NCBI GenBank assembly: GCA_902622985.1
Contig: CACNSH010000004.1
Location: 64,066-99,390 of the forward strand
Origin: an uncultured Pelagibacteraceae bacterium
Lineage (GTDB): Bacteria; Pseudomonadota; Alphaproteobacteria; Pelagibacterales; AG-422-B15
DNA length: 35,325 bases
Direction of reading: 5' to 3'
The notes below the pieces were generated by a model. The model searched no databases and was not told where the DNA came from. It saw nothing but the letters and a program-made list of their open reading frames with translations. Below are positions 1 through 31,221 of this stretch, piece after piece (the stretch's first letter is position 1; the number at the start of each line of letters is the position of its first letter). The position numbers were made by a program, and so were the translations under genes.

Positions 1-619
1 CTAAAATTTTAAAAAATACTTGAGTTTGCGACGCTCCAAGGTCTAAAGCTGCCTCTTCTTGAGTCTGATCAAATCTTTGAAGTCTTGCAACAAATATTAA
101 AAAACAATAAGTAGATATAAAACAGGTTTGAGCCAAAATTGTTAGAAATATTCCGTTTCTTCCAATATCTGCAATGAACCCCTCTCCTCCTAAGCCTGCT
201 ATTCGGTCCCATAAAACGACTGTTGAAATACCAATTATCACACCAGGAAATAAAACGGGCATAATCGAGATTGAGTAATAAATATCCCTTAACTGCGAAC
301 GCACTTGAGTTAATACTATTGCTGCGGCCATTCCAATTGGTACGGAGAGAGTTACAACTCCTGCTCCTATAATCAAACTGCTAATAATACCATCGTGAAG
401 TCTCCAGTCAGATAAAAGCCCTGCCAGATGTTGTCCATCGTAAGCAATTTTACCTTCATTAAACCATCTAAAGCTAAAACATTCCCAAGGTGTGATCGAA
501 GGAAATTCTGCAGAGTTGAATGCTGTAATGCTCATGATGATTAAAGGCCCAAATAAGTATGCAAAAAATATAAAAATATATATTCCCATCATGAAATTTA
601 TAAAATAGCTCGGTCTCAC
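1..619 (-). CDS. potC: Spermidine/putrescine-type ABC transporter permease PotC (C-terminus cut by window edge)
   Basis: Second inner-membrane permease of the polyamine-type importer. Reading the minus strand from a GTG at 619 gives an open frame of 206 codons up to the window edge. It starts VRPSYFINFMMGIYIFIFFA, has several hydrophobic segments and ends in the permease-family EAA loop (EEAALDLGASQTQVFFKIL), which docks on the ATPase. The GTG overlaps the potB TGA stop (GTGA at 616-619), a typical translational-coupling arrangement that supports this start. The remaining C-terminal residues, including the last membrane segments, lie outside the window. It is the last gene seen of potD-potA-potB-potC. 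Family assignment is firm; the actual substrate (putrescine, spermidine or another cation) cannot be read from the permease. Confidence 0.9.
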   Translation of the reverse strand, partial: MRPSYFINFMMGIYIFIFFAYLFGPLIIMSITAFNSAEFPSITPWECFSFRWFNEGKIAYDGQHLAGLLSDWRLHDGIISSLIIGAGVVTLSVPIGMAAAIVLTQVRSQLRDIYYSISIMPVLFPGVIIGISTVVLWDRIAGLGGEGFIADIGRNGIFLTILAQTCFISTYCFLIFVARLQRFDQTQEEAALDLGASQTQVFFKIL

Positions 620-1545
620 TTAATAATTTCTCCAATCCTAACTTTAAATATTCGCATCATTGTGAGTACGAAAATAACAGAAACAATTAACAAAATGATT
701 GAATAAGCTGATCCCCGTGACCAGTTGTCATTCATATTAAACCACTGATATATCAATTGAGGAAACCATAAAGTATTAGGGCTACTTAAAACAACTGGCG
801 TTGCTAGTGCTCCAACAGTTAACATAAAAACCATTGTACAGCCAGATACAATGCCTGGTTTAGCATGAGGAATAACTATTCTCCAATGCGTTCTAAAAGA
901 TGAGGAACCTAAATCTTTTGCTGCCTCGATTTGATTAATGTCCAAACTTTCGATTGCATTATAGAGTGGGAACATCATCAGCAAAATATAGGCGTATATT
1001 AAGCCGGTATATAAACCGATATCATAAGTGATAAATAGGATTCCTTGATCAAGTATTCCAACCCCAGTCAAGAAATTGTTAATTACACCTTCGTTTGCAA
1101 ACAAAATCCTCAATGCGAATGATCTAAGCAATTCATTAATCCAGAAAGGAATAATCAGAGAAACAATAAGAAGTCTAGCGGTACTAGGGTTTGCAATTTT
1201 TGCTATATAAAATGCTATTGGATAGCAAAATAATAGATTTGCAATTGTAACAAGCATTGAAACAAAAATAGTTCTTCCAAATACACCTAAATCAACAAAG
1301 TTAAAAGCATCAGTAGCTGTCTTAGATCCAAATATAAAGTGGCTATAGTGTTCAAAAGTATAATAATCTTCAGGTCCACCTCTTGCTAAAGGGGGGACGT
1401 TGGTTCTAAATGATAAATCCAACATATAAAATTGTGGAATTATAACTAAGAAAACAAACCAAAATATTATTGCTACTAAAAAATATATCGCAACTGCCTT
1501 ACCGTTTTTCTTAAAAAATGGTTGAGTAAATAAAAAATTGTTCAT
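616..1545 (-). CDS. potB: Spermidine/putrescine-type ABC transporter permease PotB
   Basis: First inner-membrane permease of the importer, 309 residues, a little longer than typical PotB. About six hydrophobic helices are visible, beginning with residues 17-37 after a short cytoplasmic N-terminus. The EAA coupling loop is at IEAAKDLGSSSFRTHWRIVI, about 100 residues from the C-terminus, as expected for a MetI-like permease. The start is ATG, three bases after the potA stop at 1549. The stop overlaps the potC start, so potA, potB and potC are clearly one transcription unit. A PotB/PotC heterodimer forms the channel, PotA powers it, and PotD delivers substrate from the periplasm. Confidence 0.92.
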   Translation of the reverse strand: MNNFLFTQPFFKKNGKAVAIYFLVAIIFWFVFLVIIPQFYMLDLSFRTNVPPLARGGPEDYYTFEHYSHFIFGSKTATDAFNFVDLGVFGRTIFVSMLVTIANLLFCYPIAFYIAKIANPSTARLLIVSLIIPFWINELLRSFALRILFANEGVINNFLTGVGILDQGILFITYDIGLYTGLIYAYILLMMFPLYNAIESLDINQIEAAKDLGSSSFRTHWRIVIPHAKPGIVSGCTMVFMLTVGALATPVVLSSPNTLWFPQLIYQWFNMNDNWSRGSAYSIILLIVSVIFVLTMMRIFKVRIGEIIK

Positions 1546-1548
1546 GAC

Positions 1549-2646
1549 TTAATCTATAGCTAGAGATGCTTTAGGTAATATTACTGATTTTGAAGATTCA
1601 AAACCTAACACGATTGACGATCCTGAAGTTATAGAGGATGTATCTATGGCGTTTGGTACTGAAAATTTGATTTTTGCTCCCGATTTAAGGCTTGCGTAAA
1701 AATTTTTTAAATTACCTTCAAATTCAAAACTTTCAATATTCACATCAATTTTATTATCAAAGTTGTCGCCATCTCTTGGTATAAACAAAGACTCAGGCCT
1801 AACAAATGCAATTGACTCATCTCCAATATTTAACTTTTTGCTTTCATTCATCGTTGCTAAATATTGCCCATCAGCAGTTTCAATTTTAGCTTTATCTCCC
1901 TCAATACCTGTAACTTTTCCATATAAAGGATTATTCTCACCAACGAATGTTGCAACAAATGGTGTTAATGGATTGTTATAAACTTCGTCGCATTTTCCAA
2001 TTTGCTCAAGCTCTCCTTCATTCATGACCGCTATTCGATCAGACATTGTTAGGGCTTCTCCTTGATCGTGCGTAATATAAATAAATGTAATGTTTACTCT
2101 TTTTTGTATTTCTCTAAGTTCGGTTCTCATTCTTTGACGAAGTTTTAAATCCAAGGCAGACAATGGTTCATCTAAAAGAAGAACTTTTGGCTCAACAGCT
2201 AAAGCTCTTGCAATGGCTACTCTTTGTTTTTGACCTCCAGAGAGTTGATGAACTTTTTTATCTCCTTGTCCCTCTAAGGCTATCAATTCCAAAAGTTCAT
2301 CCGCTCTTTTTTTTCTTTCTTCTTTTGATACGCCCCTTACCTCAAGGGAAAACGCAATATTTTCTGATACACTCATGAGAGGAAACAGAGCTAAGTTTTG
2401 AAATATTAACGCGGTTGGTCTTTTATTTGGACCAATTCCAGACATATCTTTATTGTCAATAAGCACTTTACCCTCAGAAGGTTCTTGAAATCCAGATATA
2501 GCCCTCAACAGAGTAGTCTTTCCACAGCCTGAAGGTCCTAAGAAGCTGAAGAACTCACCTCCATTTACTTTTACATTGACATTCTTGGCTGCATAAAAAC
2601 TGCCAAATGTTACCGAAACATCACTTAACTCTACATCTGCGCTCAT
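1549..2646 (-). CDS. potA: Spermidine/putrescine-type ABC transporter ATP-binding protein PotA
   Basis: Cytoplasmic ATPase of the importer, 365 residues, full length for the family. Walker A is GPSGCGKTT at residues 37-45, the signature LSGGQKQR starts at 135, Walker B LLLDEP has D159 and E160, and the switch histidine is in ITHD at H193. Residues from about 235 on form the C-terminal TOBE-type domain found in PotA, MalK and FbpC, which in this family senses substrate or regulators. The ATG at 2646 has no clear Shine-Dalgarno sequence. A strong hairpin terminator sits between this gene and potD, so potA-potB-potC are probably expressed at a lower level than the binding protein. Confidence 0.93.
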   Translation of the reverse strand: MSADVELSDVSVTFGSFYAAKNVNVKVNGGEFFSFLGPSGCGKTTLLRAISGFQEPSEGKVLIDNKDMSGIGPNKRPTALIFQNLALFPLMSVSENIAFSLEVRGVSKEERKKRADELLELIALEGQGDKKVHQLSGGQKQRVAIARALAVEPKVLLLDEPLSALDLKLRQRMRTELREIQKRVNITFIYITHDQGEALTMSDRIAVMNEGELEQIGKCDEVYNNPLTPFVATFVGENNPLYGKVTGIEGDKAKIETADGQYLATMNESKKLNIGDESIAFVRPESLFIPRDGDNFDNKIDVNIESFEFEGNLKNFYASLKSGAKIKFSVPNAIDTSSITSGSSIVLGFESSKSVILPKASLAID

Positions 2647-2684
2647 TGATACAAATTATAATGGTTTAACTGAAAAACACGATT

Positions 2685-2716
2685 CAATAAAAACGCCCAA
2701 GACAATGCCTTGGGCG
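2685..2716 (-). terminator. Intrinsic terminator or attenuator between potD and potA
   Basis: On the minus strand an 8-bp perfect stem (CGCCCAAG / CTTGGGCG, arms 2709-2716 and 2694-2701) closes a 7-base loop and is followed by five T (positions 2693-2689), then TTG-rich sequence. This is a textbook rho-independent terminator. It lies about 28 bases after the potD stop and 40 bases before the potA start. With no other obvious promoter between the genes, it probably causes partial termination and protects the 3' end of a short potD mRNA, giving an excess of binding protein over transporter. Confidence 0.8.
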
Positions 2717-2744
2717 CTTTTAATAACTAATCCTAGAGAACTAA

Positions 2745-3890
2745 TTACGCTGTTTCAAATTTGTTAGCGTATTCAGCTCTTGCATCAGCATACCATGGCG
2801 GTTCTGGTGGCCAAGGATTTAACTTGGTCGAAGTGTCCCCCGGGTATATTGCTTTTGCTAAAGCTTTAGTTTCATCTGAGTAATGGTCTGAAGCTCCATT
2901 AACAGCTGAGTTATAACCGATTTCATTCACAGTTTGCCCGCCTACTTCTGGTGTAAAACTGTAATTGATTAACTCATAAGCTTCATCAATGTTTTCTGCT
3001 TTTGCAGACATTGTTATACCGTCGATCCATGCCAACGCACCCTCATCAGTAGTTTGGTAAGCAACTGGTTCTCCAGCTTTCATCATTGCTGCAATAGGGC
3101 CATCCCAAGTTTGTCCTACGACAACACCGTCAGATGTGAATCCTTGTTTCTGAGGATCGGCACCAGACCAAAATTTAACAAGATTTCCTTTTTTTGAAAT
3201 ACAATAGTCAGTAATTGTTTCCCAATTCTTTCTCATTGTATCTTCATCGTTGTACGAAGACCAGAAATCCATTTTGCCTTGATGATGCATCCAAATACCA
3301 CATCCAGTCATCATTGAGTATGTTCTACCCATCATGAATGCGCCATCTATTCCAGGATTAGGCTCCCAAATATCTCCAAAGCTTGGAAGTCCATCGGGTT
3401 GCCATTTGTCAGTTCTCCAAGATATTGACTCAGTACCCCAAAGTTGTGGAACCCAGTGAGATCCTTTTCCTCCAAAATTCCAGTCACGCTCACCAACAGC
3501 TAACATTCCTGGGTTGACAGCACTTGTATTTATTCGATTCATATCAAATGGGGCAAGTACGCCAAGGTCAGCCCATTGCAAAGCTCTCATATTAGTTGGA
3601 CTTGCAAGGTCATAACCGGCTCCACCACCAGCTTTCATTTTTGATATAATTTCACCGTTATCACCTATTTTAGTATGGTTAACAGTAATTCCAGTTTTTG
3701 CTTTGAAATCTGCAACTACTGAGTCCGGCAAATATTCGCCCCACATTAAAACATTAACAACGGGAGCAGCAAAAGCATTTGGAATATACCAAGGTCCGAT
3801 AGCTGCTGCTGCACCAGTTGCAGCTGCACCTTTCAGGACTGATCTTCTTGAAACTTTTGCAGCCTTAAGAGTTTTATTAATTTTCTTCAC
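2745..3890 (-). CDS. potD: Polyamine-type ABC transporter periplasmic substrate-binding protein PotD (Tat signal)
   Basis: Extracellular solute-binding protein, 381 residues, of the spermidine/putrescine-binding (SBP_bac_8-like) family. The N-terminus carries a twin-arginine motif SRRSVLK at residues 14-20, a hydrophobic Ala/Gly stretch and a likely cleavage site after AFA near residue 41, so export is probably through Tat in folded form. The mature start, VVNVLMWGEYLPDSVVADF, is typical PotD/PotF. Aromatic-rich stretches (WGTESISWRTDKW, GQTWDGPIAAMM) resemble those lining the polyamine pocket. The start is GTG with a good AGGAG five bases upstream. It is first in the pot operon and diverges from the MetE-like gene. 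Ligand identity is inferred from family only; marine PotD-type proteins can be broad in specificity. Confidence 0.9.
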   Translation of the reverse strand: MKKINKTLKAAKVSRRSVLKGAAATGAAAAIGPWYIPNAFAAPVVNVLMWGEYLPDSVVADFKAKTGITVNHTKIGDNGEIISKMKAGGGAGYDLASPTNMRALQWADLGVLAPFDMNRINTSAVNPGMLAVGERDWNFGGKGSHWVPQLWGTESISWRTDKWQPDGLPSFGDIWEPNPGIDGAFMMGRTYSMMTGCGIWMHHQGKMDFWSSYNDEDTMRKNWETITDYCISKKGNLVKFWSGADPQKQGFTSDGVVVGQTWDGPIAAMMKAGEPVAYQTTDEGALAWIDGITMSAKAENIDEAYELINYSFTPEVGGQTVNEIGYNSAVNGASDHYSDETKALAKAIYPGDTSTKLNPWPPEPPWYADARAEYANKFETA

Positions 3891-4162: not shown

Positions 4163-5209
4163 ATGATTTTAACAACTACAATTGGCGCTTATCCTAAACC
4201 GGATTTCTTAGATTTACCTGATTGGTTCAAAGATGAGAAAGGAACAGATGCTGAATACCCAACATCTAAGTGGGAACAGGCAAGACAAAAAATGGGAGAA
4301 GAATATGAGGTTCAAATAAAACTTGCCTCACAGAGTATTATTAAAGATCAAATTGAGTGCGGGATTGATATTATTACAGACGGTGAGGTGAGACGAGAAA
4401 ATTATATTCATTATCATTGTAGGCATCTTAGTGGGATCGATTTTCAAAAACTAACAAAGAAAACAGCGAGAACAGGCAATTATGATTGTTGGCTTCCAAC
4501 AATCACAAATAAAGTTGAATTCAATGGATCGTTTTTAAATAAAGAATACGAATTGAATCAGTCAATATCAAAAAACCCTATTAAAGTTACAATACCTGGA
4601 CCATTGACTATCACAGATACGATTGCTGATGAATTTTATAATGATCATAAAATGTTAGGAGTAGATTTAGGAGAGGCAATAAATAAAGAAATAAAGTCAC
4701 TAGTCAATTCTGGCTGTAAATATATACAAGTAGACGAACCTTTATTTGCAAGAAAATCAAAAGAGGCAATCGAATTTGGTATAGATAATCTTGAAAGATG
4801 TTTTCATGGAGTTACAGACTGTGAAAAGATAACTCATATATGTTGTGGATATCCAGATAAAATTGATGCAGATGATTATCCTAAAGCGCCGTTAATAAGT
4901 TATTTTCAAATTGCAGATGCCTTAGAGAACAGTCTGATTGATACCATATCTATTGAAGATGCTCATAGACACAATGATTTAAAACTACTTGAGTTGTATA
5001 AATCAAAAAAAATAATTTTTGGGTTAATAAAGGTCGCCTCAAGTGAAGTGGAAGAAATTGATGTGATAAGGGATAGATTGCTGTCCTGTCTAAACCATAT
5101 TGATAAAGAGAGACTTATAGCAGCTCCTGATTGTGGTCTTGGATATTTAAGTAGGGATATGGCTATGCTTAAATTAAAAAATCTATCAAAGGCAGCAAAA
5201 AGTATTTAG
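4163..5209 (+). CDS. Cobalamin-independent methionine synthase-like (MetE C-terminal domain) methyltransferase
   Basis: A 348-residue protein matching only the catalytic C-terminal barrel of MetE; classical MetE is about 750 residues with a duplicated N-terminal half. All four expected zinc ligands can be placed: H225 and C227 in THICCG, E265 in SIEDAHR and C324 in APDCGLGY. IQVDEPLF (residues 188-195) and the N-terminal TTTIGAYPKP are also characteristic. The zinc site activates a thiol, most likely homocysteine, as methyl acceptor. Without the N-terminal half the methyl donor need not be methyl-THF polyglutamate; archaeal core MetE proteins use a corrinoid protein, and other short homologues have unknown donors. 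It diverges from potD, and its stop overlaps the alanine dehydrogenase stop by four bases. Family firm, exact donor unknown. Confidence 0.8.
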   Translation: MILTTTIGAYPKPDFLDLPDWFKDEKGTDAEYPTSKWEQARQKMGEEYEVQIKLASQSIIKDQIECGIDIITDGEVRRENYIHYHCRHLSGIDFQKLTKKTARTGNYDCWLPTITNKVEFNGSFLNKEYELNQSISKNPIKVTIPGPLTITDTIADEFYNDHKMLGVDLGEAINKEIKSLVNSGCKYIQVDEPLFARKSKEAIEFGIDNLERCFHGVTDCEKITHICCGYPDKIDADDYPKAPLISYFQIADALENSLIDTISIEDAHRHNDLKLLELYKSKKIIFGLIKVASSEVEEIDVIRDRLLSCLNHIDKERLIAAPDCGLGYLSRDMAMLKLKNLSKAAKSI

Positions 5210-6321
5210 GCAACTAAATCTTCAGGGTTTGTAAAAGTGATGTTCAGATCTCTTGCTACATCTGCTTGAGTGCATTTATTTTTTATAACATTTAGTCCAT
5301 TCATAAAATTCCTGTCATCAGATAATGCTTTTTTTAACCCTTCTCTCGCTAATTTTTTTACGAACGGAAGTGTAGCTTGATTTAGAGAGATGGTGGACGT
5401 ACGGGGAACGCACCCAGGCATATTGGTTACACAGTAATGTACCACATCATGTTTAATATAAACTGGGTCTGCGTGGGTAGTAGGCTTGCTGGTTTCAATG
5501 CACCCACCTTGATCTATTGCAACATCCACGATGGCTGCCCCTTTTTTCATCTGAGAAACTAGTTCATCCGATACTAATTTGGGCGCACTAGAGCCTGGGA
5601 TCAGCACACCTCCTATTAGTAAGTCACAGTTTTTAACTTCTTCGGCTATAGTTTCAGGTGTTGATATTGATGTATTGACTTCATCATTAAAATAATTTTT
5701 TAATTCATTGAGCCTTGCTTCAGATTGATCAATAAGCGTTACATTTGATTTCATTCCATGAGCAATAAGAGCGGCATTAAAACCTACAACTCCACATCCA
5801 ATAATTACAACTTTAGCTGGCGGTGCTCCTGTTGCGCCAGATAATAACACGCCTCTTCCTTTGTTTGTCATTTCAAGAGCTCTGGCTCCTGCTTGTATTG
5901 AAATTCTGCCGGCTACTTCACTCATTGGAGCCAGTAATGGAAGCCTTCCATTGTTATCGGTTATAGTTTCGTAAGCTATACATGTTGCGCCGGAATTCAT
6001 TAATCCTTCTGTCAATGCTTTACTTGCAGCAAGGTGCAAATATGTGAATAGCAACTGATCATCTTTTAATTTTTTTATTTCATTATCTTGAGGCTCTTTA
6101 ACTTTAATGATCAACTCAGCGCGGTCGAAAATATCTTGCGCATTTTCAAAAACTGTTGCCCCAACATCCTTATAATTTTGATCGTCAAAACCTGACCCCT
6201 GACCGGCTGTTCTTTCAATGATTACTTCATTACCATCATCAATAAGTTCCTTTACACTTTCAGGAGTTAGGCCTACTCTATTTTCTTGCGGCTTAATTTC
6301 TTTAGGAACACCGATCAACAT
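5206..6321 (-). CDS. ald: Alanine dehydrogenase
   Basis: NAD-dependent L-alanine dehydrogenase (L-alanine + NAD + water to pyruvate + ammonium + NADH), 371 residues, the usual length. The N-terminus MLIGVPKEIKPQENRVGLTP is typical. Expected active-site residues fall where known: R15, K75 in IKVKEPQ, H96 in YLHLAAS, and the aspartate of DVAIDQGG. The NAD-binding Rossmann motif is GCGVVGFNAA, near residue 175. In classical taurine dissimilation Ald regenerates the pyruvate used by taurine:pyruvate aminotransferase, and those genes (aminotransferase, Xsc) lie just beyond the next gene, so this is probably its main job here. It diverges from the methyltransferase at 6377 and has no clear Shine-Dalgarno sequence. 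Confidence 0.93.
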   Translation of the reverse strand: MLIGVPKEIKPQENRVGLTPESVKELIDDGNEVIIERTAGQGSGFDDQNYKDVGATVFENAQDIFDRAELIIKVKEPQDNEIKKLKDDQLLFTYLHLAASKALTEGLMNSGATCIAYETITDNNGRLPLLAPMSEVAGRISIQAGARALEMTNKGRGVLLSGATGAPPAKVVIIGCGVVGFNAALIAHGMKSNVTLIDQSEARLNELKNYFNDEVNTSISTPETIAEEVKNCDLLIGGVLIPGSSAPKLVSDELVSQMKKGAAIVDVAIDQGGCIETSKPTTHADPVYIKHDVVHYCVTNMPGCVPRTSTISLNQATLPFVKKLAREGLKKALSDDRNFMNGLNVIKNKCTQADVARDLNITFTNPEDLVA

Positions 6322-6376: not shown

Positions 6377-6997
6377 ATGGGTAAAAAATGGCTAAACATT
6401 GTTTATAAGGAAAAGAATTCAACCCGCCTAAAAAAACATTATAGGGAATGGGCTGACGGTTATGACAGTGACTTAAAAGACTGGGGCTACGCTTACCCAA
6501 GTAAAGTTAAACAGATTCTAGAAAAGTATATAACTGTAAAGAAAGGCTCAAAAATTCTTGATGCAGGGTGTGGTACTGGCTATGTCGCTGAAGTTTTGAA
6601 AGCTCTTCGTTACAATAATATCGTAGGGATAGATTATTCAAAAGATATGTTAAGAGTAGCTCGCTCTAAAAAAATATATAAAAAACTAGTTTGCGAGTCG
6701 TTAAGCAAAAAAACAAGTTTAAAAGGAAATCAATTTGATTTAGTTATATGCACAGGTGTTTTGACGTCAGGTCATGTTGGACCGTCATCAATAAAGGAAT
6801 TAATTAGATTAACAAAGCCTGGGGGTTATCTCATACTCTCTATTTCTGAAAAAATTTTCTCAAAACTTGGATTTAAGCGTGAATTAGAGAAAAGATCGAA
6901 TGAGTACAATTATATCAAATTATCAAAACCTTTTATTGCTTTACCTAACCACAAAGATAGTGCAAGGTCGCGAATGCACACTCTTCAAAGAGTTTAA
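6377..6997 (+). CDS. Class I SAM-dependent methyltransferase (METTL27-like)
   Basis: A 206-residue cytoplasmic methyltransferase. Motif I is ILDAGCGTGYV at residues 60-70, the SAM-ribose acidic residue is D86 in GIDYS, and post-motif FDLVICTGVLTSGHV is present. The N-terminal ADGYDSDLKDWGYAYP resembles the small METTL27/WBSCR27 group of methyltransferases. The substrate is unknown. GAGGAAAG lies about eight bases before the ATG. It is a single gene between divergent ald and convergent xsc; its stop overlaps the xsc stop by four bases. Its position between two taurine-pathway genes may be chance, but methylation of an amine or sulfur compound in the same metabolism is possible. Confidence 0.75.
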   Translation: MGKKWLNIVYKEKNSTRLKKHYREWADGYDSDLKDWGYAYPSKVKQILEKYITVKKGSKILDAGCGTGYVAEVLKALRYNNIVGIDYSKDMLRVARSKKIYKKLVCESLSKKTSLKGNQFDLVICTGVLTSGHVGPSSIKELIRLTKPGGYLILSISEKIFSKLGFKRELEKRSNEYNYIKLSKPFIALPNHKDSARSRMHTLQRV

Positions 6998-8772
6998 CCG
7001 TGTTGCTCTTGGCTCATGTCATCAGGATTGATGCCGGCAACTTCTACTGGTTTTTTCATTGCATCTCGTCTGAAAGGTTCTCCAAGTTCTTGATTTAAAA
7101 TAACCTCAATAAAAGTTGTAACTCCGTTTGACTGTTCTTCACACGCAGTTCTGAGTGAATTTGTCAACTCATCCATGGTTTTAACTATAACACCCTTCAA
7201 TCCACAGCCTTCTGCAACTTTTGCGTAGCTTAATTCTGGATCTAATTCGGTACCAACGAAATTATTGTCATACCATAATATCGAATTTCTTTTTTCGGCG
7301 CCCCACTGATAGTTTCTAAATATCACCATTGTAATTGCAGGCCATTCTTCCCTAGCGCAAGATGTCATTTCATTCATGCTTATGCCAAAAGCTCCATCTC
7401 CAGCGAAACCAACAACAGGGATATTTGGACAGCCTATTTTAGCTCCTAAAACTGAAGGGAAACCATAACCGCAAGGACCAAAAAGACCAGGAGCTAAATA
7501 TTTTCTACCTTCTTCAAATGTTGGATAAGCATTTCCAATTGCACAGTTATTGCCTATGTCGGATGAAATTATTGCATTTTTTGGCAAGCCATTCTGTATT
7601 GCCCTCCAAGCCATGCGAGGAGACATGCGATCTGCATCCCTGACTCTAGCTTCCTCATTCCATGATGTTCCAGGATCGTCATCTTCATGGTCCATACTAC
7701 TCAATGTTTGTAACCAAGCAGATTTGGTTTGATGAATTAGAGCTTTCCTCTCATCTCTATTTTTGTTTCCTGCTTCGGGAGAAAGGCTATTTAATAGTTG
7801 CTGGGCAACTTGTTTTGCATCACCGCATATACCTACTGAAACTTTTTTTGTTAATCCAATTCTATCAGAATTTATATCGACCTGAATAATAGCTGCATCT
7901 TTTGGCCAATAATCTATTCCGTAGCCAGGCAATGTTGAAAATGGGTTAAGTCTAGTGCCTAATGCAAGAACAACGTCTGCTTTAGAAATTAACTCCATAG
8001 CAGCTTTTGAGCCGTTATAACCTAAAGGCCCCACTGCAAGTGGATGACTACCTGGAAAACTATCATTATGTTGATAGCCTGAAGCAACAGGTGAATCTAA
8101 TTTTTCAGCTAAAGCTTTGCAGTCATTGATTGCATCAGCTAAGACCACCCCAGCTCCTGATAATATTACTGGAAAGTCAGCATTAGATAAAAGTTTTGCT
8201 GCTTCTTTTATTGCTTCGCTTCCTCCAGATGGTCTCTCAAATTTTATTATTGGCGGCAACTCGATATCTATAACTTGTGTCCACATGTCGCGAGGAATAT
8301 TTATTTGTGCTGGCGCGGAACCTTTGAATGCTTTTGAAATTACTCGATTTAGTACTTCTGCAACTCTAGTAGGATCTCTCACTTCCTCCTGGTAGCAAAC
8401 CATATCTTTAAACAATGCCATTTGTTCTACTTCTTGAAAGCCACCTTGTCCTATAGTTTTATTAGCCGCTTGTGGAGTAACCAGAAGCATTGGAGTGTGA
8501 TTCCAGTATGCAGTTTTTATTGGCGTAACAAAGTTCGTAATGCCCGGGCCATTTTGTGCAATGCACATAGACATTTTTCCTGTCGCTCTTGTATAGCCGT
8601 CTGCGATTATACCACCATTATTTTCATGAGCTACATCCCAGAAAGTAATGCCTGCTTTTGGAAATAAATCGGAAATTGGCATGAATGCAGATCCAATTAT
8701 TCCAAATGCGTGCTGTATTCCGTGTTTTTGTAAAACTTTAACGAATGCTTCTTCTGTGGTCATTTTAGTCAT
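6994..8772 (-). CDS. xsc: Sulfoacetaldehyde acetyltransferase Xsc
   Basis: Thiamine-diphosphate enzyme that converts sulfoacetaldehyde and phosphate to acetyl phosphate and sulfite, the step that releases sulfur from taurine and related C2 sulfonates. At 592 residues it is full length. The start MTTEEAFVKVLQKHGIQHAF, the segment with GSAFMPISDLFPKAGITFWD, the GGFQEVEQM stretch and the centre LGTRLNPFSTLPGYGIDYW are strongly diagnostic of Xsc against other acetolactate-synthase-like proteins. The ThDP-binding GDGAFGISMNEMTSC and a downstream asparagine (FRNYQWGAEKRN) are present. It is the third gene of the aminotransferase-flavoprotein-xsc operon, 11 bases after the flavoprotein stop. A phosphate acetyltransferase gene, often beside xsc, is not in this window, so acetyl phosphate must be used by an enzyme encoded elsewhere. 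Confidence 0.95.
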   Translation of the reverse strand: MTKMTTEEAFVKVLQKHGIQHAFGIIGSAFMPISDLFPKAGITFWDVAHENNGGIIADGYTRATGKMSMCIAQNGPGITNFVTPIKTAYWNHTPMLLVTPQAANKTIGQGGFQEVEQMALFKDMVCYQEEVRDPTRVAEVLNRVISKAFKGSAPAQINIPRDMWTQVIDIELPPIIKFERPSGGSEAIKEAAKLLSNADFPVILSGAGVVLADAINDCKALAEKLDSPVASGYQHNDSFPGSHPLAVGPLGYNGSKAAMELISKADVVLALGTRLNPFSTLPGYGIDYWPKDAAIIQVDINSDRIGLTKKVSVGICGDAKQVAQQLLNSLSPEAGNKNRDERKALIHQTKSAWLQTLSSMDHEDDDPGTSWNEEARVRDADRMSPRMAWRAIQNGLPKNAIISSDIGNNCAIGNAYPTFEEGRKYLAPGLFGPCGYGFPSVLGAKIGCPNIPVVGFAGDGAFGISMNEMTSCAREEWPAITMVIFRNYQWGAEKRNSILWYDNNFVGTELDPELSYAKVAEGCGLKGVIVKTMDELTNSLRTACEEQSNGVTTFIEVILNQELGEPFRRDAMKKPVEVAGINPDDMSQEQHG

Positions 8773-8783
8773 AACAATACTTT

Positions 8784-11228
8784 CTATACTAATATTTTTT
8801 CTCTGCCTGGATCATAAAAACAATTTATTGACCCCTCTGCAGAATATTTAGTTTCTGCAACTTCAATTTCAAATTTTTGATGACTCATCATTTCTTCAAT
8901 AGAGTAGCTGTCATTGTTTGAAATGTAACCCATGCCCAATGATTTGTCTAAATAGAAACCATACATACCTGAAGAAATTTCACCAACAATCTTACCGTCA
9001 AAATAGATTGGCTCATTGTGATAAATTAATAAGTCATTGTTAGATAATGCAAAATTTACTTTTCTTTTACTGAGACCAGATTTCTTCTTTTCTTCAAGTG
9101 CTGCCTGTCCTAAAAAAGGATTCTTTTTATTAAGATTTACACAAAATCCAACACCCGCTTCAAAAGGGTTTTCCTCAACTCCAATATCATGCCCCCAATG
9201 AAGATATCCTTTCTCCATTCTCAGTGAATTTAGTGCATGATAGCCTGCAAGTTTTACTGGGCTCTTTCCATTTTTTGCATAAACAACATCGAATACTTTT
9301 TCCAAATTATTATAAGGAATGTATATTTCAAAACCCAGCTCGCCTACATATGTTATTCTATGAAGCCTACATTCAGTGCCGCCAAGATTTATTTTCTTAG
9401 AAAATCCAAACGGTAATGTTTCATTTGAAATATCCTCATTACATATTCTTTGAAGGTGCTCCCTTGAGTTGGGTCCCATTATTGAAAGACAGCCATATTT
9501 TTTCGTAACGTCAATAATTTCTATATTTTTAAATTTTTTTGAATGAGATAATAACCAGTAATAGTCTTTATTATGTGCAGTTGGACCTGTAACAAACATA
9601 TATTCATTTTCACTTATTCTCGTAAAAGTAATGTCACCTTCTGTTCCAGCTTCGTCATTTAACATTTGTGTGTATATAATTCGCCCAACTGGTACATTCA
9701 TCTCACTTACACACATATAATTTAAAAAATTAACTATATCATCTCCTCGAATAATAAACTTAGAAAAAGATGTAAGTTCAAATAGGCCAATATCATTTCT
9801 TACAGCAATACATTCGCTCCTTACATTTTCAAACCAATTTTGTTTATGATACGAGTATTGATATTGAGGTCTTTGACCATTATTAGTAAACCAATTTGGC
9901 CTTTCCCATCCAGCCGCTTCTCCAAAGCAAGCTCCTTCTTTTTCAAGTTGGGCGTAAAGTGGTGATTTAATTTTGTTTCTAGAAGTTTCAAATTGATAGT
10001 AGGGCCAATGTACAGCGTACAAGAGCCCAAGCGTTTCAGAGCTTCTTTCTCTTAGATATTCATCATCATCTTGAAAATCTAATACTCTAGCGACATCTAC
10101 ATCCCACAAATCAATCTTACTTTTGTCATTTATGATCCAATCAGCCATAACTTTGCCAACTCCTCCAGCAGATTGTATTCCTATTGAATTGAAGCCAGTT
10201 GAAACAAATATATTTTCTTTGTAAGGAACTTTGCCTAAATAATACCTATCATCAGGTGTGAAGCTTTCAGGTCCATTAAAATATGTTTTAATGCCAAGCT
10301 CATTCAGTATTGGAAGCCTATCCATTGCTTCCATTAAAATAGGTCCGAAATGATCAAGATCGTTTGGCAAACTATCAAATTCGAAATCTTCAGGAATACC
10401 GTTCATGCCCCAAGGTTTTGCTTTTTTTTCAAAGGCGCCTATTAAAAGTTTTCCAGCGTCTTCCTTCACATAAATATAGGCATCTGGGTTTCTTAAGATG
10501 GGTAAATTTTTTGGTATATCTTCTGAATATTCAGTTACAGCGTAAAAATGTTCACATGCATGCAGAGGAATATTTACCCCGCACATTTTACCTACTTCCC
10601 TACTCCACATTCCAGCAGATATAACAATCTTATCACATGCAATATCACCTAGTTCTGTAATAACTTTTGTGACCTTGTCACCTTCTTGTTCGATTGAAAT
10701 GACTTTGTTATTTTCAATAATGTTTGCACCCATTCTTCTTGCTTCTTTTGCAAGGCACATTGTAATGTCTACCGGGTTAATTTGACCGTCCTGAGGCAAA
10801 AACCAAGCTCCTTTTACATGCTTTGTATCGAGAAGTGGGTATTTCTCTTTTACTTCATCAATTGAAATTTCATTTATTTCCAATCCATAACTTCGACCCA
10901 TTGACGCGCCTCTGCTCATTTCTTGATAACGTCCCTCATTTTCAGCAATAGAAACTGAACCATTTATCAAAAATCCAGCTGATAGATCTTCTTTCTGGTT
11001 AAGCTTATGATAAAGCTCCGTTGAATACTTGGCCATTTTTGTAAGATTTTTTGTTGCCCTTAATTGACCAACCAATCCAGCTGCATGCCAAGTTGTACCA
11101 CAAGTTAGACTCTTTCTCTCAACCAATGTGACCTGAACATTTCTCTCAGCAAGGTGGTATGCAATGCTTGTACCAGCAATGCCTCCTCCAATAATAACAA
11201 CCTCTGTGTGTGAAGGAAGCTTTGACAT
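8784..11228 (-). CDS. FAD-dependent dimethylglycine/sarcosine dehydrogenase-like protein with GcvT domain (N-methyl oxidase/demethylase)
   Basis: An 814-residue two-part enzyme. Residues 1-390 form a DAO-type flavoprotein with GGGIAGTSIAYHLAERNVQV at residues 14-33 and the TTWHAAGL motif, whose H48 aligns with the histidine that binds FAD covalently in DMGDH and sarcosine dehydrogenase. The C-terminal part (about 420-814) is a GcvT/aminomethyltransferase-type folate domain, with LRMEKGYLHWGHDI typical of the family. The family oxidises an N-methyl group and passes the carbon to tetrahydrofolate as methylene-THF. Likely substrates by homology are dimethylglycine or sarcosine. Its place between aminotransferase (8-base gap) and xsc (11-base gap) suggests an N-methylated taurine instead; that is inference. 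DmdA (DMSP demethylase) resembles only the second half and lacks the flavin domain. Confidence 0.85.
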   Translation of the reverse strand: MSKLPSHTEVVIIGGGIAGTSIAYHLAERNVQVTLVERKSLTCGTTWHAAGLVGQLRATKNLTKMAKYSTELYHKLNQKEDLSAGFLINGSVSIAENEGRYQEMSRGASMGRSYGLEINEISIDEVKEKYPLLDTKHVKGAWFLPQDGQINPVDITMCLAKEARRMGANIIENNKVISIEQEGDKVTKVITELGDIACDKIVISAGMWSREVGKMCGVNIPLHACEHFYAVTEYSEDIPKNLPILRNPDAYIYVKEDAGKLLIGAFEKKAKPWGMNGIPEDFEFDSLPNDLDHFGPILMEAMDRLPILNELGIKTYFNGPESFTPDDRYYLGKVPYKENIFVSTGFNSIGIQSAGGVGKVMADWIINDKSKIDLWDVDVARVLDFQDDDEYLRERSSETLGLLYAVHWPYYQFETSRNKIKSPLYAQLEKEGACFGEAAGWERPNWFTNNGQRPQYQYSYHKQNWFENVRSECIAVRNDIGLFELTSFSKFIIRGDDIVNFLNYMCVSEMNVPVGRIIYTQMLNDEAGTEGDITFTRISENEYMFVTGPTAHNKDYYWLLSHSKKFKNIEIIDVTKKYGCLSIMGPNSREHLQRICNEDISNETLPFGFSKKINLGGTECRLHRITYVGELGFEIYIPYNNLEKVFDVVYAKNGKSPVKLAGYHALNSLRMEKGYLHWGHDIGVEENPFEAGVGFCVNLNKKNPFLGQAALEEKKKSGLSKRKVNFALSNNDLLIYHNEPIYFDGKIVGEISSGMYGFYLDKSLGMGYISNNDSYSIEEMMSHQKFEIEVAETKYSAEGSINCFYDPGREKILV

Positions 11229-11236
11229 ACAAGATG

Positions 11237-12559
11237 CTAGTATTTTACTAAGACCTCTTTAATTCTTTGAAGCATTTCATCTATGTGTTTTTCTTCAGCA
11301 ATTAACGCAGGAGCAACTATACCAGCATCCCCAGTAAATTTTATGTGAACACCATTAGCAAACGTCTTCTTTTGAGCATCATATCCTCTCACGCCAGGGT
11401 TTTTATCAATCGCTAGATCAAAAGCAGCCATCATTCCATCAGCTCTTACATCTGTAACAATTGGTATATCCTGAAATGCATCAAACACAGCGTCTATGAA
11501 ATATGGTGACATCTTTTCTGCTCTCGCAAACACATCCTCTTTCTCATATACATCCAAAGTAGCAAGAGAAGCTGCTACACAAGCTGGATGACCTGAGTAA
11601 GTATATCCGTGAAAAAACTCTACTCCGTGCTCTGGTCCATTATCAACAATTGCATTGTAAATTTTATCTGAAACACCAACTGCCCCCATAGGCTGCGCTC
11701 CATTGGTAATAGCCTTTGCCATAGTAATCATATCAGGCTGTACATTGTATTTTACAGCCCCAAATGATTTTCCTGTTCTCCCAAAACCAGTTATTACTTC
11801 GTCAAAAACAAGAACAATTCCATATTTATCACAAATTTCTCTTAGCCTTTCTAAATATCCAATAGGTGGAACAATGGTTCCTGTTGAGCCAGCAATGGGT
11901 TCAACGAAACACCCAGCAATAGACTCGGGACCATACATTTCTACGAACCTCTGAAGGTCCTCAGCAAGATGAGCTCCATGTTGCGGCTGACCTTTTGTGT
12001 ATTTATTTTCTTCTAACCAAGTGTGTCTTAAATGAATAACTCCAGGCATTGTTGCAGTAAATATCTCACGGTTTTTAATCATGCCACTTAAAGAGGTTCC
12101 TCCGATATTTACACCATGGTACGCACGCTCTCTTGATACAAATCTTACACGTTGCGATTGGCCAATTGCGTGCTGATATGCCTGAATTATTTTAATTGCA
12201 GAGTCAATTGCAGTAGATCCACAAATTGTGAAGAATACATTGTTTAAATCACCCGGTAGAAGATTTGCTACTTTTTCAGCTAATGCAAAAGCAGGTAAAT
12301 GAGAAACTTGGAAGCTTGGAGAGTAATCTAATTTTAACAATTGCTGATGAACAGCTTCAGCTATTTCTTTTCTGCCATGTCCCAATGGAACACAAAATAG
12401 ACCGGATGAAGCATCTATTACCTGGTCACCTTTATGATTCCAGTAGTATACTCCCTCACCTCGATCTAATAATCTTGGATCCTTCTTAAAGTCTTTATTT
12501 GCAGTAAAAGGTAAAAAGTAGTTTTCCAAAGAATTAGTCGTAGGTGTAGTATTTGCCAT
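11237..12559 (-). CDS. Class III omega-amino-acid:pyruvate aminotransferase, probably taurine:pyruvate aminotransferase
   Basis: PLP enzyme of 440 residues. The PLP lysine is K282 in ITMAKAITNGAQPMGAV, with the ring-N aspartate D253 in VFDEVITGFGRTG. The overall sequence (LENYFLPFTANKDFKKDPRL, LDYSPSFQVSHLP, YHGVNIGGTSLSG) is that of the omega-amino-acid or beta-alanine:pyruvate aminotransferase group, whose members accept beta-alanine and often taurine or hypotaurine. As first gene of an operon ending in xsc and close to ald, taurine to sulfoacetaldehyde with alanine formation is the most economical role. Beta-alanine (to malonate semialdehyde) remains the main alternative. The ATG has AGAGGA a few bases upstream. 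Cytoplasmic; specificity not decidable from sequence alone. Confidence 0.88.
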   Translation of the reverse strand: MANTTPTTNSLENYFLPFTANKDFKKDPRLLDRGEGVYYWNHKGDQVIDASSGLFCVPLGHGRKEIAEAVHQQLLKLDYSPSFQVSHLPAFALAEKVANLLPGDLNNVFFTICGSTAIDSAIKIIQAYQHAIGQSQRVRFVSRERAYHGVNIGGTSLSGMIKNREIFTATMPGVIHLRHTWLEENKYTKGQPQHGAHLAEDLQRFVEMYGPESIAGCFVEPIAGSTGTIVPPIGYLERLREICDKYGIVLVFDEVITGFGRTGKSFGAVKYNVQPDMITMAKAITNGAQPMGAVGVSDKIYNAIVDNGPEHGVEFFHGYTYSGHPACVAASLATLDVYEKEDVFARAEKMSPYFIDAVFDAFQDIPIVTDVRADGMMAAFDLAIDKNPGVRGYDAQKKTFANGVHIKFTGDAGIVAPALIAEEKHIDEMLQRIKEVLVKY

Positions 12560-29991: not shown

Positions 29992-30342
29992 ATGGACCTT
30001 TTAAAGAAATCCGATGAAGAAATTTTAGAAATTGCTTCCCCCCTCTGGGATAACTTAATTATTTGCTCGAATTCTCAAGATTACTTTGGATTTACAAAAA
30101 ATTTTTCTGCAAGAATGCTTTTTGGTGCGAATGAGATTGAGCTTGCAAAACAATGGGCAAATAACGAGGTTATAACAAATTTAAAGAAAGAGAATGAATT
30201 TCTCGGGTGCATTAGAAGAAACGAACATGTTACGGTACTATTTAAACAAAAAAGTACTATTTCAAATGGTGACTATCTTGGTAGACTTGTTCTAGGAGTC
30301 GAAGATGGTGAAATAAAAATATTTGGAGCAACAATATTTTAG
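29992..30342 (+). CDS. Small protein of unknown function, fourth gene of the apr operon
   Basis: A 116-residue soluble protein whose ATG follows the aprA stop without a spare base, so translation is probably coupled. No signal peptide or membrane segment. It has a helical N-terminal half (KSDEEILEIASPLWDNL) and a beta-rich C-terminal half ending DGEIKIFGATIF, which looks like an NTF2/SnoaL-sized fold. It has two cysteines (in IICSNS and LGCIRR) with no metal motif. I do not recognise a family. It may be a partner, chaperone or regulator of AprBA. It overlaps the convergent nucleotidyltransferase gene by four bases. Confidence 0.75.
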   Translation: MDLLKKSDEEILEIASPLWDNLIICSNSQDYFGFTKNFSARMLFGANEIELAKQWANNEVITNLKKENEFLGCIRRNEHVTVLFKQKSTISNGDYLGRLVLGVEDGEIKIFGATIF

Positions 30343-30734
30343 ACTAGTTCGTCCTTATCTCTCATTTCTTTACGAATTTTTGTTGCTGAGATTTTATGAA
30401 TTTCTTCACCCAGATCGTGCTCTGTAAAGGTGTAACCTACTCCTCGTCCATATGAAATATCAGTTATATTTGGCACCTTAATTACAATAAATTCTCTCTC
30501 ATTTTTAAAGCCCTCTAACTCAAGACTTAAAATGATACGTTGTTTTACATCCTCAAACTCAAAAGGGTTATCTGATTGACCATTAACTCCGGCATCAACA
30601 CCTGAAACATCTCTAAACATAATGCATACTTGACCTGAAACATTTAGAGCTTTTTTAAACAATTCTGTATGTCCTTTATGCCAAGGTTGCCAACGACCAA
30701 GCATTTGAGAAGTAGGTTTTTTCCAATCAAACAT
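30339..30734 (-). CDS. Small HxGH nucleotidyltransferase (cytidylyltransferase-like)
   Basis: A 131-residue nucleotidylyltransferase domain protein. GRWQPWHKGHTELFKKAL carries the HxGH signature (H19, H22), and ISATKIRKEM (from 114) is the C-terminal ISxTxxR motif; both bind the nucleotide triphosphate. GRWQPxHKGH resembles NMN/PPC adenylyltransferase and cytidylyltransferase members. It overlaps the APS-kinase-like gene by eight bases, so the two are co-translated. ATP sulfurylase also belongs to this superfamily but is about 400 residues with a different active-site HxxH layout, so I do not call this Sat. Substrate unknown; a sulfur-nucleotide or cell-surface precursor role is possible given APS-related neighbours. 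Confidence 0.75.
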   Translation of the reverse strand: MFDWKKPTSQMLGRWQPWHKGHTELFKKALNVSGQVCIMFRDVSGVDAGVNGQSDNPFEFEDVKQRIILSLELEGFKNEREFIVIKVPNITDISYGRGVGYTFTEHDLGEEIHKISATKIRKEMRDKDELV

Positions 30735-31221
30735 TTATTATCTCTTTCGCAAGAATAGCTATTTCCTGATCATTCATGAAGCTCTTTATGATTTTGTTTG
30801 CATCATCAGGTTTCTCAAACATGTTTGTTGTATCTTTAAATGCTTGAGAATTCTCAAGCGTTTCAACTTCGAAAGGAAGATCTTTGGAGTTCTTTAATTC
30901 ATTTTTTTTGTTTTCCACAACTCTACCTTCCTTAATTGTATCAAGCCATATTAAATAATCTGCCTCAAATGACTCTCTTGCGGCTTTAGTTGGAGCAACA
31001 AAATCACATATCACAAATCTTCCGTTGTTTTTTTCAAAGTTGGCAAAAGTTTTCATCCTCATTGCTTGTCTAGATCTTCCTGCTTTTGAAAAGTCCCAAT
31101 CATTCGATGCGCTTCTAACAATATCTGCATTATACCAAGCACAATTGTCTATGTTTTGAACAAGTCTTTCTGCTAGCCAGGTTTTACCAGATCCTGGTAA
31201 TCCAAAAATCAAAATTTTCAT
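30727..31221 (-). CDS. Adenylylsulfate-kinase-like P-loop kinase
   Basis: A 164-residue P-loop protein. Walker A is GLPGSGKT at 7-14. NADIVRSASNDWDFSKAGRSRQAMR lines up with the DGDNVR and GFS.. DR.ENIRR blocks of APS kinase, and ICDFVAPTKAARESF matches the ISP.R.R region. The differences (N for G/D, S for L) and a shorter C-terminal half mean it may not phosphorylate APS. Upstream gene in a two-gene unit with the HxGH protein; 46 bases lie between it and the HlyD-type gene on the same strand. Genuine CysC makes PAPS. Alternative roles are phosphorylation of a nucleoside or of a surface-sugar precursor. Confidence 0.72.
   Translation of the reverse strand: MKILIFGLPGSGKTWLAERLVQNIDNCAWYNADIVRSASNDWDFSKAGRSRQAMRMKTFANFEKNNGRFVICDFVAPTKAARESFEADYLIWLDTIKEGRVVENKKNELKNSKDLPFEVETLENSQAFKDTTNMFEKPDDANKIIKSFMNDQEIAILAKEIINV

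Follow-up and report, generated by a model that had tools for sequence, protein, structure and literature searches.

The window analysed here, a stretch of 35,325 nucleotides (positions 64066 to 99390 of contig CACNSH010000004.1), comes from a 1.30 Mb Pelagibacteraceae (SAR11) genome that is 87% complete. It carries, on the minus strand throughout, three genes which are presumably read as a single transcript: a class III aminotransferase, probably taurine:pyruvate aminotransferase (tpa), a flavoprotein gene encoding 814 residues, and xsc, the gene for sulfoacetaldehyde acetyltransferase. Open reading frame (ORF) coordinates confirm the gaps of 8 and 11 bases that the first-pass annotation had given for them. 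A gene for alanine dehydrogenase (ald) is found on the strand of xsc, with a single opposite-strand gene intervening. Our subject is the flavoprotein, and its probable role in removing the methyl group of N-methyltaurine. Table 1 collects the coordinates.

Table 1. Features of the taurine gene cluster of the window and of its surroundings.
Feature	Positions	Strand	Basis
Class III aminotransferase, probable taurine:pyruvate aminotransferase (tpa), 440 residues	11237..12559	-	PF00202, NF052567
FAD-GcvT N-demethylase of the dimethylglycine dehydrogenase family (clade A), predicted N-methyltaurine demethylase, 814 residues	8784..11228	-	Pfam domains, alignment, tree
TTWHAAGL codons (residues 45-52), presumed covalent-FAD loop	11073..11096	-	Aligned with TWHAAGL of rat dimethylglycine dehydrogenase
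His227 codon, the counterpart of His225 in Arthrobacter dimethylglycine oxidase	10548..10550	-	Alignment
Asp532 codon, folate domain, aligned with Asp552 of dimethylglycine oxidase	9633..9635	-	Alignment
xsc, sulfoacetaldehyde acetyltransferase, 592 residues	6994..8772	-	TIGR03457, NF005713, both above cut-off
ald, alanine dehydrogenase	5206..6321	-	TIGR00518, 473 bits (cut-off 392)
S-adenosylmethionine-dependent methyltransferase, convergent with xsc	6377..6997	+	PF08241
Solute-binding protein of an ATP-binding cassette (ABC) transporter, PotD-like, candidate importer of the cluster	2745..3890	-	Models below cut-off
ATPase of the ABC transporter, matched best by PhnT2 (below cut-off)	1549..2646	-	
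ABC transporter permease, PotB-like, below cut-off	616..1545	-	

The identity of Xsc, proposed from the outset, holds: the equivalog model TIGR03457 recognises it at 963 bits, against a cut-off of 676, and NF005713 at 1036 bits. The window ald is 56-58% identical to its counterpart after tpa in a second SAR11 family, described below. The aminotransferase exceeds the cut-off of NF052567, the model for 'omega-aminotransferase AptA' (563 versus 500 bits), and no taurine-specific model figures among the best 25 of 69 NCBIfam models. As only this broad model clears its cut-off, the name Tpa rests on context, namely xsc and ald and, in relatives, tauABC-like neighbours.

The flavoprotein displays, in the order known from dimethylglycine dehydrogenase (DMGDH), the domains PF01266 (DAO), PF16350 (FAO_M), PF01571 (GCV_T) and PF08669 (GCV_T_C), each above its cut-off, together with the TTWHAAGL motif; the early description of a FAD-GcvT oxidase was thus correct. 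No NCBIfam model is above cut-off among the best 25 of 65. The closest relative of solved structure, human DMGDH (5l46), aligns with residues 7-770 of the query at E 5e-132. Of the residues of Arthrobacter dimethylglycine oxidase, His225, Tyr259 and Asp552 all have conserved equivalents, the position aligned with Asp532 being Asp in structure 1pj5 and Ala in 3gsi. We take the TTWHAAGL loop to bind FAD covalently, His227 and Asp532, like His225 and Asp552, to be catalytic, and Tyr259 to have a functional role in the oxidase. Domains and conserved positions fit a working folate-coupled N-demethylase. With its FAD domain joined to a complete folate-binding GcvT domain, and with this loop and these positions, the protein belongs to the DMGDH/sarcosine dehydrogenase family.

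How this gene is placed in related genomes was followed in a sample of 197 genomes of the order (demethylase matches at E 1e-175). The window's own SAR11 family (f1) has a match in 23 genomes, and in 21 of them xsc begins 14-22 bases after the match and in the same orientation. These 21 genomes are close relatives and not independent cases; as 21 of 23 carriers share the arrangement, it is not due to chance. One of them, the single-cell genome G021, has a broken demethylase with stops inside the match (L049, 6607-9049), through decay or sequencing error. The two exceptions are G330, where the contig ends within the demethylase gene, and G339, where tpa precedes a demethylase that is broken off after about residue 574. 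At the break in G339 (L224, 1883-2399) the gene is joined to sequence that is found in the window at 30339-31221, about 20 kb away; this is either a single-cell chimera or a rearrangement. Among the loci of 16 named records, which overlap with the sampled f1 genomes, 15 display tpa-demethylase-xsc and the sixteenth ends inside the demethylase.

The taurine genes also occur without their demethylase. Of the f1 genomes, many of which are incomplete, 36 have xsc, and 15 of these 36 have no demethylase match. Ten of these 15 loci were read: their gene order is that of the window as far as the contigs reach, except for a different gene after xsc in G297. As tpa directly adjoins xsc in all ten, the taurine operon can exist by itself, and the demethylase is an optional module added to it. 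Trees of the genes of the locus comprise 14-19 rows, drawn from nine carrier loci (among which are the window and 4 of the 15 named ones), L205, and nine of the ten loci without it. In the trees of the flanking fadB and thiolase genes, the carrier G290 stands among non-carriers (support 99) and the carrier G280 beside the non-carrier G297 (100). The tpa and ald trees (97 each) likewise put G290 with genomes devoid of the demethylase, whereas the Xsc tree (98) and that of the convergent methyltransferase (100) put it with the carriers. Because of this discordance, it is probable that the three genes for demethylase, Xsc and methyltransferase were exchanged together, as one block. A case of demethylase loss could be G297, the Xsc of which falls with the carriers.

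A second family of SAR11 (f2) tells a similar story in another arrangement. Homologues, 40-45% identical, occur in 110 of its genomes in the same sample, and in 73 of these they are located, by coordinates, on the same strand and within about 3.6 kb behind tpa; another 23 f2 genomes have tpa and no demethylase match. Sixteen f2 loci were read: seven linked to tpa, seven unlinked, G395 and G367. In all seven linked loci tauABC-like genes stand next to tpa-ald-demethylase; the taurine model is the best one for the TauB-like protein, yet below its cut-off. The homologue of G395 adjoins xsc and that of G367 is 2.7 kb from it, with three opposite-strand genes between. Proteins of f1 and f2, together with one outside sequence (L154), form a single clade (98). 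Two further observations belong to these loci. In L067, ald and the demethylase are separated (7393-9163) by two genes, one for a SET-domain protein and one for a DAO flavoprotein that stands alone. A gene for a sodium/bile-acid symporter of the SBF type (PF01758; L064, 8156-9007) has similar genes in eight f2 loci, one of which was scanned, and this neighbour of the f2 demethylase is possibly a transporter for the methylated substrate.

The family tree was built with FastTree, whose local supports are quoted, and its long branches make fine placement unsure. It takes in proteins whose match spans more than 600 residues, so that copies which are partial or split (that of clade A in L180 is one) are absent, and contains a group that we chose by hand and call group b (97). 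It holds rat DMGDH, Arthrobacter dimethylglycine oxidase and the two further fused copies of the window genome, which are 34% and 32% identical to the window protein. The latter falls outside and, as judged from this tree, does not group with characterised DMGDH. One paralogue belongs to a cluster with BKACE, carnitine-dehydrogenase-like, gamma-butyrobetaine-dioxygenase-like and homocysteine S-methyltransferase genes, names which rest on Pfam or NCBIfam models below cut-off; the other lies near soxA and soxB, both over cut-off. Since its own paralogues group elsewhere in the tree, the window protein is unlikely to be a simple duplicate of a betaine enzyme. When proteins are labelled as taurine-linked or not, loci cut short being scored as not linked, the label changes 13 times on the tree, at least 12 of the changes being forced by strongly supported branches, so that the linkage arose or was lost many times.

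We therefore come to the interpretation, to which we give somewhat better than even credence: the protein of 814 residues is an N-methyltaurine demethylase, part of a taurine operon, and passes the methyl group to folate. An enzyme of the DMGDH family, with its FAD and folate domains, would have been recruited to the SAR11 taurine operon. There it would act in the direction of demethylation, the flavoprotein oxidising the N-methyl group of N-methyltaurine and perhaps of N,N-dimethyltaurine too, transferring it in the cell to tetrahydrofolate as 5,10-methylenetetrahydrofolate, and leaving taurine. Tpa would convert taurine into sulfoacetaldehyde, ald would regenerate pyruvate, and Xsc would turn sulfoacetaldehyde into acetyl phosphate and sulfite. 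The compounds involved are natural ones: N-mono-, N,N-di- and N,N,N-trimethyltaurine were found with taurine by nuclear magnetic resonance in the seaweed Galaxaura rugosa, as an extract of PMC10538540 has it. Import of taurine by Candidatus Pelagibacter HTCC1062, with its use for growth demonstrated earlier, is likewise mentioned in part of PMC3090418. The idea that demethylation of methyltaurine feeds taurine breakdown, put forward in the first-pass annotation, gains from the linkage to taurine genes in both SAR11 families and in a Rhodobacteraceae-like genus (xsc-pta-tpa-demethylase), and its choice of substrate, in our analysis, rests on association. It is the best available interpretation, and comparative tests in SAR11 did not refute it.

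A number of observations weigh against this assignment, many of them made outside SAR11. In a class sample of 240 genomes (demethylase at E 1e-160, xsc at E 1e-150) the demethylase has a match in 67 genomes and xsc in 26, with 21 genomes common to both sets; 19 of the 24 xsc-positive genomes that are not SAR11 have a demethylase match, and the two genes are side by side only in G146, where demethylases b and A are followed by a convergent pta-xsc pair and, further on, a tpa-like gene. For genomes labelled Rhodobacteraceae-like, from their similarity to a Rhodobacteraceae plasmid record, 218 of different genera were sampled. Of these, 137 have xsc and 139 have clade A (120 have both, 17 xsc alone, 19 the gene alone, 62 neither), an association (odds ratio 23, Fisher p 1e-21) that speaks for the assignment, in a test that ignores descent and has no control gene. 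The two genes are within 15 kb of each other in only nine of the 120 genomes with both, against about one expected under a crude uniform model. Linkage to xsc outside SAR11 is the exception, though a recurrent one. Within SAR11, 31 of the 110 f2 homologues do not lie near tpa (for 26 the contig is a different one), and six f2 genomes with the gene had no tpa match at E 1e-175. We found no enzyme of clade A with a tested substrate, and the aminotransferase is matched by a broad model only. The signatures EHFY, FNSIGI and GPESFTPD recur in relatives not seen near taurine genes; because active-site signatures are common to such relatives, no sequence feature reads as taurine-specific, and visual inspection of four alignment regions (24 rows at most) showed no active-site motif specific for taurine. 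Finally, a distant homologue on pSymB of Sinorhizobium is placed between taurine genes and genes for aminoethylphosphonate. The first-pass annotation had named a lack of linkage to xsc in related genomes as a refutation. SAR11 does not provide it, the gene staying with xsc in f1 and mostly with tpa-ald in f2; outside SAR11 homologues are mostly not near xsc, with recurrent exceptions.

Separate cases of linkage, G146 above and G600 and G625 below, speak for the assignment. The phylum sample (398 genomes) has 21 xsc-positive genomes, and 17 of 22 chosen xsc-positive genomes have a demethylase match. G600 and G625 belong to a single Rhodobacteraceae-like genus and have xsc-pta-tpa-demethylase, all on the same strand, a regulator of the GntR-aminotransferase (MocR) type facing the end of the cluster. 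The clade A gene is found downstream of xsc in all nine linked Rhodobacteraceae-like genomes, and shares its strand in eight. Five of the nine were read (G600, G865, G924, G833 and G994), plus G625. G924 has regulator-xsc-XRE-b-A on a single strand; in G865, XRE-b-A comes about 3 kb after xsc; in G994, xsc-ackA is followed, about 7 kb on, by XRE-b-MttB-A-PurU; and in G833 the clade A gene is convergent with pta-xsc. Ten plasmid records have both xsc and the gene among the matches listed (the best 60 of 170 for xsc, the best 60 of 153 for the gene): six at 3.1 kb on one strand, all Sinorhizobium, one at 15.8 kb, and three with the genes far apart. In S. meliloti the pSymB segment (L222, 9127-12469) holds a DeoR regulator and the distant demethylase relative. 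In Aminobacter, a relative has phosphonate genes nearby, and the 20 kb displayed carry no annotated xsc. An unbiased clustering of neighbours in GC-rich loci was swamped by shadow ORFs and gave leads only (MttB, XRE, SBF, kinase). A phage collection has matches in six records.

What else might the gene do? It could encode a sarcosine or dimethylglycine dehydrogenase of glycine betaine breakdown, standing beside taurine genes since both osmolytes are used together; we hold this to be rather unlikely. The clade A gene is accompanied by a DMGDH-like group b gene in 15 of the 94 loci searched, with MttB in 8 of these 15, and the co-occurrence of xsc with clade A might be explained by shared osmolyte lifestyles. 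Two tetrahydrofolate-binding Roseobacter dehydrogenases, SPO3400 and SPO3396, are predicted in a section of PMC4744692 for dimethylglycine and sarcosine, and R. pomeroyi is stated there to grow on both. We infer that these two genes, four locus numbers apart, correspond to group b and clade A, and that the demethylase clusters of the Rhodobacteraceae-like relatives would be of the kind predicted in that section. This adds to the case against N-methyltaurine. It also qualifies what can be said of clustering with betaine genes, which the first-pass annotation had named as a threat to its proposal: the window protein stands apart from rat DMGDH and from its own paralogue beside the homocysteine methyltransferase, and its Rhodobacteraceae-like relatives are in clusters apparently of the dimethylglycine/sarcosine type. 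The window genome has, however, that separate paralogue, as well as soxAB beside the other one, and an insertion between tpa and xsc, with parallel placements behind tpa-ald and behind xsc-pta-tpa, is hard to square with a shared lifestyle.

A substrate other than taurine derivatives is improbable in our view, yet some details point to it: the enzyme might demethylate another N-methyl omega-amino acid, or several (N-methyl-beta-alanine, N-methyl-2-aminoethylphosphonate), together with a broad aminotransferase of the AptA type. AptA is indeed the model that recognises the aminotransferase of the window, and likewise the genes of G032 and G625; homologues of Sinorhizobium and Aminobacter are near aminoethylphosphonate genes, and PhnT2, below its cut-off, is the best model for the ABC ATPase of the window. 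To this we oppose the presence, directly behind the demethylase, of xsc, which is named for sulfoacetaldehyde, the tauABC-like genes of the f2 loci, and the fact that no phosphonate family is prominent in the ten window proteins scanned, that ATPase aside. N-methyltaurine could also be oxidised at its other carbon, with sulfoacetaldehyde and methylamine as products, as is reportedly the case (work attributed to Weinitschke, 2006) with the N-methyltaurine dehydrogenase of Alcaligenes and Paracoccus. The product would then feed Xsc directly; no result of the analysis supports this route. Methyl transfer is favoured by the complete folate domain, in which Asp552 has its aligned counterpart, and the position of tpa just upstream implies that a free amine is the intermediate, which makes oxidation at the other carbon very improbable. 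Least probable of all in our view is a mere chance position of the demethylase in the operon, with no role in the use of sulfonates. Neighbours in small genomes can be unrelated, and this gene is missing from the locus in the ten relatives read that have no match and is away from tpa in the f2 genomes counted above. Chance is unlikely because the linkage recurs in different arrangements, built differently in several lineages, with the 13 changes of label on the tree.

Returning to N-methyltaurine, we lean towards the mono-methyl compound rather than the dimethyl form, because in SAR11 and in G600/G625 clade A stands beside tpa or xsc with no group b gene, and because, where the DMGDH-like b is present, clade A looks like its partner for the last methyl group. 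This invites a wider conjecture, tentative and rather unlikely to be true. Marine Alphaproteobacteria might possess an entire route from N,N,N-trimethyltaurine to sulfite, with an MttB-type methyltransferase, a group b DMGDH for dimethyltaurine, clade A for N-methyltaurine, Tpa and Xsc, of which the SAR11 operon would have kept only the last demethylation. Overlapping pieces of this route are seen in G994, G924, G146 (b-A beside pta-xsc), G600/G625 (xsc-pta-tpa-A) and SAR11 (tpa-A-xsc). Among the papers listed by searches of open-licence literature, none was seen to name a gene for the demethylation of methylated taurines, and none of those listed brings together N-methyltaurine and xsc. If it is true, the N-methyltaurine assignment would provide a genetic marker for the use of methylated taurines in SAR11, tie folate one-carbon metabolism to the use of sulfonates, and give a function to a flavoprotein mostly annotated 'FAD-dependent oxidoreductase' in the plasmid records listed.

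The remaining genes around the cluster deserve a comment. The PotD/PotA/PotB-type transporter (616-3890) is beside the cluster in f1 loci both with and without the demethylase, its PotD being much diverged in L051. A search of the window genome for TauA gave no match at E 0.001, with a query from the sister family, no positive control and a genome 87% complete; for this reason we suggest that the PotD-type transporter may be the taurine importer of the cluster. A stand-alone methionine synthase domain of the MetE C-terminal type (PF01717, 348 residues, 4163-5209) is also found beside the taurine genes. The end of the methyltransferase gene (6377-6997) overlaps that of xsc by 4 bases, and the methyltransferase sequences fall into two deeply split groups which match the presence or absence of the demethylase (tree of 14 rows, support 100).

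It remains to compare the window with known systems. With human and rat DMGDH (5l46, 4pab, 4p9s) the flavoprotein shares the domain order and the WHAAGL loop, aligning over residues 7-770; it differs in being outside the branch of the rat enzyme, in having EHFY instead of HQYV and a one-residue insertion at FNSIGI, and in its Asp, where rat has Glu, at the position of residue 552 of dimethylglycine oxidase. The Arthrobacter oxidase (1pj5, 3gsi), with which it has the His225, Tyr259 and Asp552 equivalents in common, is more distant than DMGDH (E 3e-101 versus 5e-132), and its FAD loop reads STSHAPGL. The N-methyltaurine dehydrogenase of Alcaligenes and Paracoccus would also bring N-methyltaurine into the xsc route, reportedly with release of methylamine and sulfoacetaldehyde; the window protein, by contrast, has a folate domain and adjoins a transaminase. 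The genes of taurine dissimilation are given, in a portion of PMC10356861, as tauABC, tpa, ald, xsc and pta, and compared with this set the window likewise has a probable tpa, xsc and ald on one strand, and in addition a fused N-demethylase between tpa and xsc. On pSymB of S. meliloti, where tauR, tauC and tauY are required for taurine use according to an excerpt of PMC4254191, the demethylase homologue comes behind tauA...xsc-YeiH-pta-DeoR; it belongs to a more distant subclade, is followed by aminoethylphosphonate genes, and accompanies a taurine dehydrogenase of the TauXY type instead of tpa. In SAR11 itself, demethylation of betaine via BHMT, DMGDH and sarcosine dehydrogenase has already been proposed, the methyl groups being predicted to go to tetrahydrofolate (part of PMC3160333). 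The gene of the window would have the same broad function as these dimethylglycine and sarcosine dehydrogenases, and differs from them as a further fused copy with taurine genes for neighbours.

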